A DNA stretch of 64,000 nucleotides. Source: Alteromonas salexigens. GTDB lineage: Bacteria; Pseudomonadota; Gammaproteobacteria; Enterobacterales; Alteromonadaceae. Below, piece after piece: positions 13,891 to 16,150 of this stretch (its first letter is position 1; every line of letters begins with the position of its first letter). A program made the translations under genes and the position numbers. Where the stretch lies: NCBI RefSeq assembly GCF_025628895.1, contig NZ_JAOTJC010000011.1, positions 62,001 to 126,000 of the forward strand, given 5' to 3'. The notes under the pieces were generated by a model that was given only the letters and a program-made list of their open reading frames with translations, did no database searches and was not told the DNA's origin.

Positions 13891-14079
13891 CTATTCAGCG
13901 GTGCTTTTATTATCCGTTTTTAAGGCCAATAAAACCCCTAATATGGCAAACAGTAAGCCGGTTTGTAGGTAGGGCAGGTGGGCGTCGGCGTGAGGTGATA
14001 CCACGAACGTATACAAGGCCTGTAGAATAAATATGCCGGTAGCAATGTGAAAGGCGATGCGGGTGAATTTATGTGACAT
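13891..14079 (-). CDS. 62-residue two-helix membrane protein, candidate immunity protein
   Basis: Not a recognised family. Two hydrophobic segments (about residues 8-27 and 39-54, the latter LQTGLLFAILGVLLALK) are joined by a short His/Asp-containing loop (SPHADAHLP), with a charged C-tail. AGGAA lies about 6 bases before ATG 14079. It follows peptide gene 2 by 41 bases on the same strand, giving the order peptide, peptide, small membrane protein. Class II bacteriocin and microcin loci commonly place a small membrane immunity protein directly after the peptides, so that is the best guess (inference). It could also be an unrelated small membrane protein. Confidence 0.6.
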   Translation of the reverse strand: MSHKFTRIAFHIATGIFILQALYTFVVSPHADAHLPYLQTGLLFAILGVLLALKTDNKSTAE

Positions 14080-14120
14080 ACATGTTCCTGTGACGGGGCT
14101 GAGCGCCCCGTATTATTCTG

Positions 14121-14294
14121 TTACCAATGGTGGTTCATATTGGTATTACCATACGCCTGATATATGGAATCATTGGCGTTGGCTACCTCGGCAAAGAACG
14201 CACCGAGTTTGTAGAACAAACCTGCCCCACTGACTTCAGCAAGCTCGGTGGTGCTGACTTCTTCAAGTAAATTGTGTTGATCGTCCATGTTCAT
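14121..14294 (-). CDS. Double-glycine-type leader peptide 2 (candidate bacteriocin)
   Basis: 57 residues from ATG 14294. AAGGAA, which abuts the stop of the upstream peptide gene, lies 9 bases before it; a longer upstream start is unlikely. The leader (residues 1-24) ends LLEEVSTTELAEVSGA and matches the C39-peptidase pattern exactly: V at -12, E at -8, L at -7, V at -4, G at -2 and A at -1. The predicted mature part is 33 residues, starting GLFYKLGAFFAEVANAND and ending NMNHHW: amphipathic, with GxxxA (GAFFA), as in pore-forming two-peptide bacteriocins. The paired gene lies 13 bases upstream. The exporter/peptidase is not in this window. Confidence 0.75.
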   Translation of the reverse strand: MNMDDQHNLLEEVSTTELAEVSGAGLFYKLGAFFAEVANANDSIYQAYGNTNMNHHW

Positions 14295-14307
14295 ATCTTT
14301 TTTCCTT

Positions 14308-14436
14308 TTAACGTCTGTTGTCTGAGTAGCCTTCGTAAAAGTCGAACGCAGCCTCGGCGATGGCAATAGCCACGGCAACATGCCCCCATCCTGCACCTGA
14401 CACGCAATCTACTTCGTTTTCGCTAATTTCAATCAT
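14308..14436 (-). CDS. Double-glycine-type leader peptide 1 (candidate bacteriocin)
   Basis: A 42-residue gene (129 bp), easily missed by gene callers. AAGGAAA sits 6 bases before ATG 14436. The leader MIEISENEVDCVSGA (15 residues) fits the double-glycine consensus: I at -12, E at -8, V at -7, V at -4, G-A at -2/-1. The mature part would be 27 residues, beginning GWGHVAVAIAIAEAAFDF and ending SDNRR: a hydrophobic Ala/Ile helix with AxxxA spacing, then a polar tail. The TAA stop at 14308-14310 is immediately followed by the ribosome binding site of peptide 2, so the two are co-translated. The short leader and the near-identical cleavage context SGA|G in both peptides argue for one shared C39-type transporter encoded elsewhere. 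Confidence 0.75.
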   Translation of the reverse strand: MIEISENEVDCVSGAGWGHVAVAIAIAEAAFDFYEGYSDNRR

Positions 14437-14460
14437 TGAAAGTTTCCTTTTTTAAAGTAT

Positions 14461-14479: not shown

Positions 14480-14731
14480 GAAATGAATTTAGCGAACAAA
14501 AGCGAGAGAGAAAACTGGACCAAATGACGGTTTTGCGCGCTAGGTGTTTAGTCATTCGCGCAAAGCCGTAACCGGCCATATACTTAATCAGGGTATTGTG
14601 GTTACCCGGTTTAAGTCGCGTGCTGAACGCAACCCTGAAGTTTCGTTCAGCACTTTTTACTACGCGTATCAGCCGTTGGCGCCGGCCAGTATGCAAATGC
14701 CTCTGTGGTCTGGCAGGGGGCGGAGAGAGGC

Positions 14732-16150
14732 ATGGCATCATTGACATTTTACGGGGCGGTAGAAGGCGTAACCGGCTCAATGTATTTGCTGGAAGCTGGC
14801 GATAAGAAGGTGCTGTTAGACTGTGGCTTGTTTCAGGGGCGGCGCAAAGAAGAGGCGGCCAATCATCAACCCTTTCCGTTTAGGGTGAGTGAGCTGGATG
14901 CCGTGGTGGTATCGCACGCGCACCTTGATCACTCGGGCCGTCTGCCGCTATTGGTGGCAGGAGGGTACAAGGGGCCCATCTACATGACTAACCCTACGTC
15001 TGATCTGGTCGCCGTATTGCTGAAAGATGCCGCCTCGTTACAGGAGCGCGATGCCGAGTGGGAGAACAAACGCAGGCGCCGTGCCGGGAAAAAGGAGGTT
15101 GAGCCACTGTATACACTCGAAGACGTTGATGACACGTTAAGCTTTTGTCGGGGGCTTGCTTACTATCAGCGCCATTATGTAACTGCCGGTATTGCGGTTT
15201 GTTTCCAGGATGCCGGGCATATATTGGGCTCCGCGATCGTCGAGATATTCGTCACTGAAAACGGACAGCATAAAAAGCTGGTATTTTCAGGTGACTTAGG
15301 AAACTCGCAGGCAGCCTTACTCCGCGACCCCAGTATCGTAGAAAACGCCGATATAGTGTTACTGGAGTCAACCTATGGCGATCGTGAGCACCGTACTATG
15401 GCGGAGACCCTAAAAGAGTTTGAAGACGTCATTCAAGAGGCGTCAGCCAATGGCGGCAATATATTAATCCCGTCCTTCGCGGTAGGCAGAACGCAGGAAA
15501 TTATTTTTCGTCTGGGCGAGTTATATCAGAAAGGTAAGCTGACCCACCAGGTCGTCTACTTAGACAGTCCAATGGCCATCGCGGTCACAGAAATTTATCA
15601 CCGGTACCAGCATGTGTATAACGAGGAAGATATGCAAGCTATTGAGCAGCATTCCCCGGCCGGGATGATGCACAGCAAAAGCCTGCACAGTTTCTTGCCT
15701 ACCTTGCGCTACAGCACTACCACCGAAGAGTCGATTGCGCTCAATCGCATTGTCAGTGGTGCCATATTTATCGCCGGTAGCGGGATGTGCAATGGCGGAC
15801 GCATTCGACATCATTTTAAGCATAACCTGTGGCGGAAGCAGTCTCACGTCATTTTCGTCGGATTTCAGGCGGTTGGCACGCCCGGACGAGCGCTGGTGGA
15901 CGGTGCCAAGACCTTTAAAATTGGTGGCGATGATATCGCGGTGAAAGCGCAAATTCATACGCTGGGCGGGTTTTCGGCTCATGCCAGCCAGTCACAGTTA
16001 CTTGAGTGGTTATCGCATTTTAAAGCCGTTAAACCACGATTATTTCTGGTCCATGGCGAGAGCGGCGCCAAAGCAGCACTTAAACAGGCGGTTGATGCGC
16101 AGGGATGGCAGGCGGTCATCCCTGAGCTGGGACAAACAGTTACCCTGTAA
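14732..16150 (+). CDS. Metallo-beta-lactamase-fold RNase, beta-CASP/RMMBL type
   Basis: 472 residues from ATG 14732 (GGAGAGAGG just upstream; an in-frame GTG at 14705 is less likely). The MBL zinc motif SHAHLDHSGRLP is at about residues 60-70, DAGHILGSA follows near 160, and GDLG near 195. The beta-CASP domain has IPSFAVGRTQE, and the C-terminal RMMBL part holds GGFSAHASQSQLL and LVHGE. Together these are the seven motifs of CPSF73/Ysh1-like nucleases. Bacterial members act as endo/exoribonucleases in RNA processing. No operon partner is seen; the peptide locus upstream is divergent. Confidence 0.9.
   Translation: MASLTFYGAVEGVTGSMYLLEAGDKKVLLDCGLFQGRRKEEAANHQPFPFRVSELDAVVVSHAHLDHSGRLPLLVAGGYKGPIYMTNPTSDLVAVLLKDAASLQERDAEWENKRRRRAGKKEVEPLYTLEDVDDTLSFCRGLAYYQRHYVTAGIAVCFQDAGHILGSAIVEIFVTENGQHKKLVFSGDLGNSQAALLRDPSIVENADIVLLESTYGDREHRTMAETLKEFEDVIQEASANGGNILIPSFAVGRTQEIIFRLGELYQKGKLTHQVVYLDSPMAIAVTEIYHRYQHVYNEEDMQAIEQHSPAGMMHSKSLHSFLPTLRYSTTTEESIALNRIVSGAIFIAGSGMCNGGRIRHHFKHNLWRKQSHVIFVGFQAVGTPGRALVDGAKTFKIGGDDIAVKAQIHTLGGFSAHASQSQLLEWLSHFKAVKPRLFLVHGESGAKAALKQAVDAQGWQAVIPELGQTVTL

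Follow-up and report, generated by a model that had tools for sequence, protein, structure and literature searches.

The 64-kb window analysed here, that is, the whole stretch of 64,000 nucleotides from Alteromonas salexigens, contains a row of three small genes which most likely form an orphan class IIb-like, more precisely lactococcin G-like, two-peptide bacteriocin cassette of a Gram-negative Alteromonas, and which would rely on a genus-wide export hub. Judging from the sequence, we give this reading a probability of about 0.72. An earlier note had interpreted the locus as a two-peptide bacteriocin, and the results below support this interpretation. As far as the cited text goes, two-peptide bacteriocins of this architecture are described from Gram-positive bacteria (PMC6957408). 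The pair reported here is lactococcin G-like, comes from a marine Gram-negative genus and takes the form of short orphan cassettes that have no exporter genes, so that searches starting from the exporter would miss them. Also new are a 24-bp repeat, hairpins, a sister cassette family often endowed with the same upstream element, and a LuxR/GerE gene behind the C39 exporter gene.

The three genes of the cassette

The cassette is read on the minus strand, from 14436 to 13891, in the order peptide 1, peptide 2, membrane gene. All three ORFs are present where they had been reported:

14308..14436, minus strand: peptide 1 precursor gene, 42 aa (15-aa leader ending GA and 27-aa core)
14121..14294, minus strand: peptide 2 precursor gene, 57 aa (24-aa leader ending GA and 33-aa core)
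13891..14079, minus strand: small membrane protein gene, 62 aa, predicted helices 2-27 and 34-61, proposed immunity protein
14445..14449, minus strand: AAGGA ribosome-binding site of peptide 1
14303..14307, minus strand: AAGGA ribosome-binding site of peptide 2
14086..14089, minus strand: AGGA ribosome-binding site of the membrane gene
14093..14111, minus strand: hairpin between peptide 2 and the membrane gene (7 pairs, loop of 5, z -3.0, no T run after it)

Every cassette gene is preceded by AAGGA or AGGA, and the 41 nt between peptide 2 and the membrane gene are as the earlier note had described. Its proposal that the two peptide genes are translationally coupled found no support, because they are 13 nt apart, do not overlap, and each have their own ribosome site. 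Both leaders do obey the rule given for them (I or V at -12, E at -8, V or L at -7, V at -4, GA at -2/-1). Cut after GA, the cores of the window's strain would start GWGHV and GLFYK. Searching the 64-kb window with a regular expression for such leaders brought up peptide 1 and peptide 2 and no other ORF. In first-order Markov copies the expression matched 0.35 times per 64 kb, with an adjacent pair in 0 of 40 copies, figures that are illustrative and no blind test, since the expression was written after the finding was known. That the genes are real is indicated by the presence of the triad in all 14 carrier genomes, by dN/dS values of 0.05-0.08, and by leaders that diverge and still keep their GG/GA-type end (next section).

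AlphaFold predicted two helices for the membrane protein (mean pLDDT 84) and, with low confidence (69), a single long helix spanning residues 15-52 of peptide 2. A domain search recognised no domain in the membrane protein, and a search of a defence library with the three cassette genes returned no match. Among solved structures, the peptide 1 profile has its best matches at the SGG motif of ABC proteins, its other matches are weaker, and peptide 2 had no match.

The hairpin preceding the membrane gene recurs, with differing stem sequences, at z below -2 in 13 of the 18 cassettes folded; none was found in KUL49 and G051. Five or more T within the 8 bases 3′ of the stem were seen in 3 of 18 cassettes (ponticola, HF-Dia07 and G022). 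As the window hairpin has no T run, and the one terminator-like site of the region is on the opposite strand, a terminator is unsupported for the window. The hairpin may protect the peptide mRNA, or cause partial termination.

Distribution, selection and context

A search of 59 genomes of the genus detected peptide 2 in 14, among them that of the window, and in all 14 the triad is complete, with peptide 1 directly upstream and a small membrane protein directly downstream (two of the carriers were read from loci L011 and L018, the other 12 from a separate set of loci). The earlier note would have been refuted if the two peptides were not kept as a pair; they are kept in 14/14 carriers. The peptide 1 profile detects the same 14 genomes, plus eight more with weaker or leader-only matches. 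In the named collection, which overlaps with the 14 carriers, 13 loci were recovered from Alteromonas, Aestuariibacter and one Alteromonadaceae bin, again all with the triad. Loss of frame or leader in homologous loci would have spoken against the note; both are kept, except that in A. sediminis the leader and core of peptide 1 lie in different frames (L054; the same sequence was obtained from G077 as L069). The membrane ORF of A. aquimaris is 43 aa only, with ATG, GTG or TTG starts allowed. Class IIb operons include a gene for a dedicated membrane immunity protein; the small membrane protein encoded after the pair in all 14 carriers and all 13 named loci is the candidate for this role.

At larger scale, 13 of 395 genomes drawn from the family gave a match, and 2 of 394 drawn from the order, both of these within the genus; the cassette family is thus narrow. 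The two weakest matches of the family draw, G153 and G183, were rejected as members, and divergent triads were found in G074 and G308 (L070 and L071). G153, of the same family, contains two GG-leader ORFs of a different type (L072 1318-1674), the first of which has an in-frame interruption. A lone GG-leader ORF rich in small residues, with no partner seen, is present in G009 (L115 1441-1674, minus strand of the locus, read reversed).

For the close pair A. genovensis / sp. BMJM2, dN/dS was 0.066 for peptide 1, 0.054 for peptide 2 and 0.075 for the membrane gene. In six other pairs synonymous sites were often saturated, and third positions were the least conserved in every row. From these sequence comparisons, all three genes look translated and under purifying selection. 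Mean identities over 15 cassettes were 44% and 33% for the leaders and 57% and 73% for the cores (peptide 1 and peptide 2, respectively), and 33% for the membrane protein. Distances correlated weakly, both core against core and cores against membrane protein (Mantel p 0.06-0.10). Cores more conserved than their supposed immunity protein are not what a simple arms race would predict; this counts against the bacteriocin reading, or is the sign of a conserved target.

Leaders differ in their letters between relatives, yet keep a GG/GA-type end and the spaced hydrophobic pattern. Exceptions at the leader end are GV in G006, and GC for peptide 2 in the later-added GS14. In the mature parts, the small-xxx-small spacing pointed out earlier is real: it occupies positions 6/10 and 10/14 in 12 of 12 peptide 1 cores of equal length, and positions 7/11 in 15 of 15 peptide 2 cores. 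Both cores have at conserved positions the GxxxG or GxxxG-like motifs that class IIb requires of mature peptides, according to the portion of PMC6382864 drawn upon here. The amphipathic character that had been attributed to the cores was not borne out, since 29% of shuffled cores reach the maximal helical moment of peptide 1, and 8.6% that of peptide 2; the amphipathic helices of class IIb are accordingly not recognisable above the shuffled range. Mature class IIb peptides are typically cationic, and the window pair departs from this as well, with slightly anionic charges of -2 (peptide 1) and -1 (peptide 2). A stretch YGNTNxN is conserved near the end of the peptide 2 core.

G001, G012, G023, G040 and G044 hold a sister cassette family, whose three products are a peptide rich in GxxxG, another peptide and a membrane protein. 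The profile of its second peptide (B′) aligns with that of peptide 1 at 98% over 38 columns, leader included. Its other peptide (A′) aligns with peptide 2 in the leader only, and the membrane proteins of the two families gave no significant alignment. Six further genomes matched the sister profiles: G045, G053, G057 and G051 each have two GG-type peptides, and the copies of G054 and G027 look broken or partial. Taken together, the two profiles place either cassette in 23 of 59 genomes, some as weak or broken copies. The sister-family loci of these other Alteromonas-genus genomes are L110-L114 and L121-L124. Among solved structures, B′ matched designed repeat proteins by a short stretch, plus one weak match. 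Database labels may already name the sister peptides.

The surroundings of the cassette vary. Among the 13 named loci, one neighbourhood is common to A. genovensis, BMJM2 and A. hispanica, and a second to A. ponticola, ASW11-130 and A. aquimaris; the remaining seven have at most one gene family in common with another locus, and no gene cluster adjoining the cassette is common to all 13. In the window, the neighbour is:

14705-16150: gene of a 481-aa MBL protein

The closest copy of this protein, 90% identical, is in G043, where the 1.5 kb upstream contain neither a cassette nor a match to the 771-aa MCP that adjoins it in the window, and only 39 matching bases remain beside the gene. Given these differing contexts and the cassette-free copy of the MBL gene, the cassette looks like an accessory insertion. 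Carriage by a phage, plasmid or virus was considered and rejected, peptide 2 having no match in plasmids, phages and viral contigs; sister peptide A′ had no match in plasmids.

An unlinked exporter and a shared upstream element

The exporter had been predicted to lie elsewhere in the genome, and it does. Two proteins of the window's genome match PF03412. One is a C39-ABC protein encoded at C12:97809 (717 aa, in a 728-aa frame, E 1.6e-36), in which C, H and D occupy the catalytic triad positions; its gene is unlinked to the cassette and adjoins that of an HlyD-type adaptor. The other is a 326-aa non-ABC protein, and the sole C39-ABC detected with PF03412 in this genome is thus the former. No relatives of this C39-ABC, its HlyD adaptor or the ATP-grasp protein described below were found at E 1e-5 in the 13 loci (10-12 kb) or in the 64-kb window. 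A repeat search, in flanks of up to 6 kb, gave the same result, and its positive control recovered peptide 2 in all of these sequences.

All 14 carriers have a C39-ABC with an adjacent HlyD relative, matched over 167 residues in G019. A simple expression detected the motifs of Cys, His and Asp, the catalytic residues as named in the cited part of PMC9746304, in 13 of the 14 and missed G039. Behind the C39 gene of the window's genome, a 79-aa one-domain LuxR/GerE protein is encoded. Of the 21 exporter loci read, 16 belonging to the 14 carriers and 5 to other genomes, 17 have such a gene at this place; it is present somewhere in 57 of 59 genomes of the genus, all carriers included, with G050 and G051 having it on a different contig from the C39 gene. 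PF03412 itself is present in 58 of 59 genomes. Exporter and regulator being near-universal, their presence does not single out the carriers, and exporter presence was discarded as a carrier marker.

Beside the C39 exporter of the window's genome (contig 12) are encoded a 60-aa GG-leader precursor (L003 12290-12472), whose end is like PPVYITLAIGEGGGDLPD, and an ATP-grasp protein (L003 12505-13449) that resembles ATP-grasp peptide maturases below cut-off. Precursors of this type occur in 12 of the 21 exporter loci, and ATP-grasp relatives adjoin the exporter in 11 of 14 carriers; the exporter thus probably serves more than one peptide. The hub's own precursor shares its leader type with the cassette peptides. 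Precursor and ATP-grasp protein could possibly make up a graspetide system of the genus; the word Alteromonas is absent from the graspetide paper PMC8939145.

Upstream of peptide 1, a conserved element was found:

14512..14535, minus strand: 24-bp upstream element CAAAACCGTCATTTGGTCCAGTTT, inverted repeat AAACYG-N10-CAGTTT, starting at -99 from the peptide 1 start

A motif search upstream of peptide 1 yielded AAAAACtGtC-N5-GTaCAGTTT with a log-likelihood of 177.8 (40 starts), compared to at most 71.4 in six shuffled controls, which were mononucleotide shuffles given 15 starts each and ignoring kinship. When each cassette was left out in turn, its best site started at -92 to -106 in 17 of 18 cassettes, and at -193 in A. 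hispanica. The null for these scores was drawn from exporter loci using the full matrix. Its 99% level was exceeded by 17 cassettes and its 99.9% level by 15 of the 18, which include one near-identical pair. The A. aquimaris score was only 4.7. In the sister family, 11 starts were scanned and the best site was at -89 to -100 in G012, G040, G023, G001 (these four being close relatives), G045, G057 and G051b; it was missing from this interval in G044, G053, G054b and G027.

Over the whole genome, the cassette site is the sole one with two mismatches to the consensus, and three others have three, compared to six matches for a reversed control pattern; there is consequently no sign of a large regulon. 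The lux box is laid out as an inverted repeat like CyG-N10-CAG. The resemblance of the element to this layout would make the GerE-type protein encoded behind the exporter the first candidate for its regulator. The SOS box has the consensus CTGT-N8-ACAG. Control by LexA was rejected, because the window site, CCGT-N8-CCAG, has two deviations from it, and a sequence that does have the SOS form precedes a recA-like gene in the same genome. This latter site, CTGTATAAGTGTACAG, has the classical SOS-box form and lies on contig 10 (L129). Among the 18 cassettes, the full CTGT-N8-ACAG form is found in G074 only.

The element was also sought before the GG precursors linked to the exporter. The best site lies at -102 to -104 in 5 of 12: compared to a position-restricted null, those of L075, L081 and L086 exceed the 99% level, that of L074 is just under it, and that of the window's own L003 is at about 95%. 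L093 has a weak site at -116, and the remaining 6 of 12 have none near -102 to -116. By eye, a second pattern, approximately CTGCA..GGA.TGCAGT, is visible a few dozen bases before the hub precursor in L003, L074, L075, L081 and L086, its first half being different in L086.

The mechanism that we propose for an orphan two-peptide bacteriocin cassette is as follows. The leaders of precursors 1 and 2 would be recognised by the unlinked C39 ABC exporter, and the precursors cut after GA and exported through it and the HlyD adaptor, presumably together with TolC. The two short helical cores may then act jointly, as in class IIb killing, for which both peptides are needed, on the inner membrane of related competitors, packing through their conserved small-xxx-small faces, and the two-helix membrane protein would protect the producer. 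The cassette would be switched by a regulator binding the conserved 24-bp inverted repeat, and the hairpin before the membrane gene might set the ratio of peptide to immunity transcripts.

A broader proposal, to which we give somewhat less than even odds, is that a genus-wide hub both exports and switches unlinked, exchangeable two-peptide cassettes of at least two families, by means of a shared leader type and a lux-box-like 24-bp operator. The hub would consist, equally tentatively, of HlyD, C39-ABC and a GerE regulator of one domain, to which a GG-leader precursor of its own and an ATP-grasp protein are often added. If this is true, the small genes that are exported can be predicted from leader and operator combined, a strain can gain or drop a cassette without carrying export genes, and competition between marine strains becomes testable in harmless isolates grown in the laboratory.

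Known families, alternative readings and known systems

Among the literature matches listed, whose coverage is partial, none on two-peptide or class IIb, double-glycine, microcin or C39 peptides concerned Alteromonas. In the cited portions, bacteriocin production is predicted widely in marine genomes with no naming of such peptides (PMC8960797), and Alteromonas is mentioned for enzymes, polysaccharides and pigments (PMC11051736).

Peptide 1 relatives point to the lactococcin G-beta/enterocin 1071B family (NF038034), which 11 of 14 match at E<=1 (best 8.1e-6). With the leader removed, 6 of 10 cores match this family only, with E of 0.0023-0.17. The window peptide 1 itself scores 17.6 bits, below the cut-off of 37, and is therefore outside the family by NCBI's rule. 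Two second peptides of the sister family were scored against the same cut-off, and gave 39.6 bits (G012) and 24.4 bits (G040). The class IIb reading gains weight from these matches of the peptide 1 family, of leaderless cores and of one sister peptide. Among the peptide 2 relatives, leaders included, 4 of 14 match lactococcin G-alpha (best 0.0014), 4 of 14 match a CTB bacteriocin model (best 1.2e-4), and other GG-peptide models fit as well as or better than lactococcin G-alpha. TIGR03949, the lactobin A/cerein 7B family, was matched at E<=1 by 6 of 14 peptide 1 relatives (best 8.4e-6), a match that was gone once the leader was removed (10 of 14 cores scanned).

A Gram-negative precedent for two-protein killing exists in the larger Cdz system of Caulobacter crescentus. 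As described in the cited text (PMC5380434), its leader ends G[G/A/S], export is of type I, immunity is conferred by a small membrane protein, and contact-dependent aggregates are formed. The cassette might likewise be a cell-surface killer, with cores aggregated on the producer, killing on contact, and a membrane protein serving as CdzI-like immunity. By this description (PMC5380434, in part), the Gram-negative host, the two peptides and the membrane protein are alike, and the first peptide of the sister family is rich in GxxxG. The same description sets the two apart: CdzC and CdzD, with glycine zippers, are 86 and 84 aa long, compared to cores of 27 and 33 aa with no long glycine zipper in the window-type family; the exporter genes cdzAB are linked, whereas no linked exporter accompanies the cassette; and CdzI has three predicted membrane segments. 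We thus consider a Cdz-like killer unlikely. In known two-peptide systems, according to the cited part of PMC6957408, the immunity protein has between one and four membrane segments.

The peptides could also be a secreted pair of signals reporting density to the regulator, the membrane protein taking part in sensing or uptake. In favour of this, the cores are strongly conserved, with invariant residues near the end of peptide 2, as would be expected for a fixed receptor more than for an arms race; the export hub comes with a LuxR/GerE-type regulator; and the BlpC pheromone model gives weak matches to 4 of 14 relatives of peptide 2. This reading nevertheless appears quite improbable, given that the 13 named loci share no adjoining gene cluster, that the membrane protein amounts to two helices and no recognised domain, and that the leaderless peptide 1 cores match a bacteriocin model only.

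We are equally sceptical of two independent one-peptide microcins sharing a promoter, with a membrane protein that protects against just one of them. Each precursor does have its own leader and ribosome site, the core distances of the two peptides correlate weakly, and GG or GA leaders together with a C39 exporter are also found in Gram-negative class II microcins (PMC9746304, in the part cited). Against this stand the joint presence of both peptides in 14/14 carriers and the five near sister-family copies, which also carry two peptides each. That the products are not secreted at all, but are small intracellular membrane peptides with a coincidental GA motif, would be compatible with peptides known here from sequence alone and is highly improbable, as diverging leaders keep their double-glycine-type end and spaced hydrophobic pattern, and all 14 carriers have a C39 exporter.

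An orphan two-peptide bacteriocin cassette thus remains our preferred reading, and its place among known systems can be stated as follows. With class II microcins of the microcin V type it shares the GG/GA leader and the presence of C39-ABC and HlyD in the genome. Microcin clusters, as presented in the cited part of PMC9746304, hold one precursor together with its exporter genes, whereas the cassette has two precursors and no linked exporter, and lacks therefore the class II arrangement of a single precursor with linked immunity, C39-ABC and HlyD genes; the match of peptide 1 to Pfam MccV is weak (15.5 vs 27 bits). Compared to lactococcin G and enterocin 1071 (NF038034, NF038035), the cassette differs by its Gram-negative host, its unlinked exporter and its slightly anionic cores of 27 and 33 aa, but shares with them two adjacent peptides with GG-type leaders, small-xxx-small motifs and a membrane protein encoded next to the pair.
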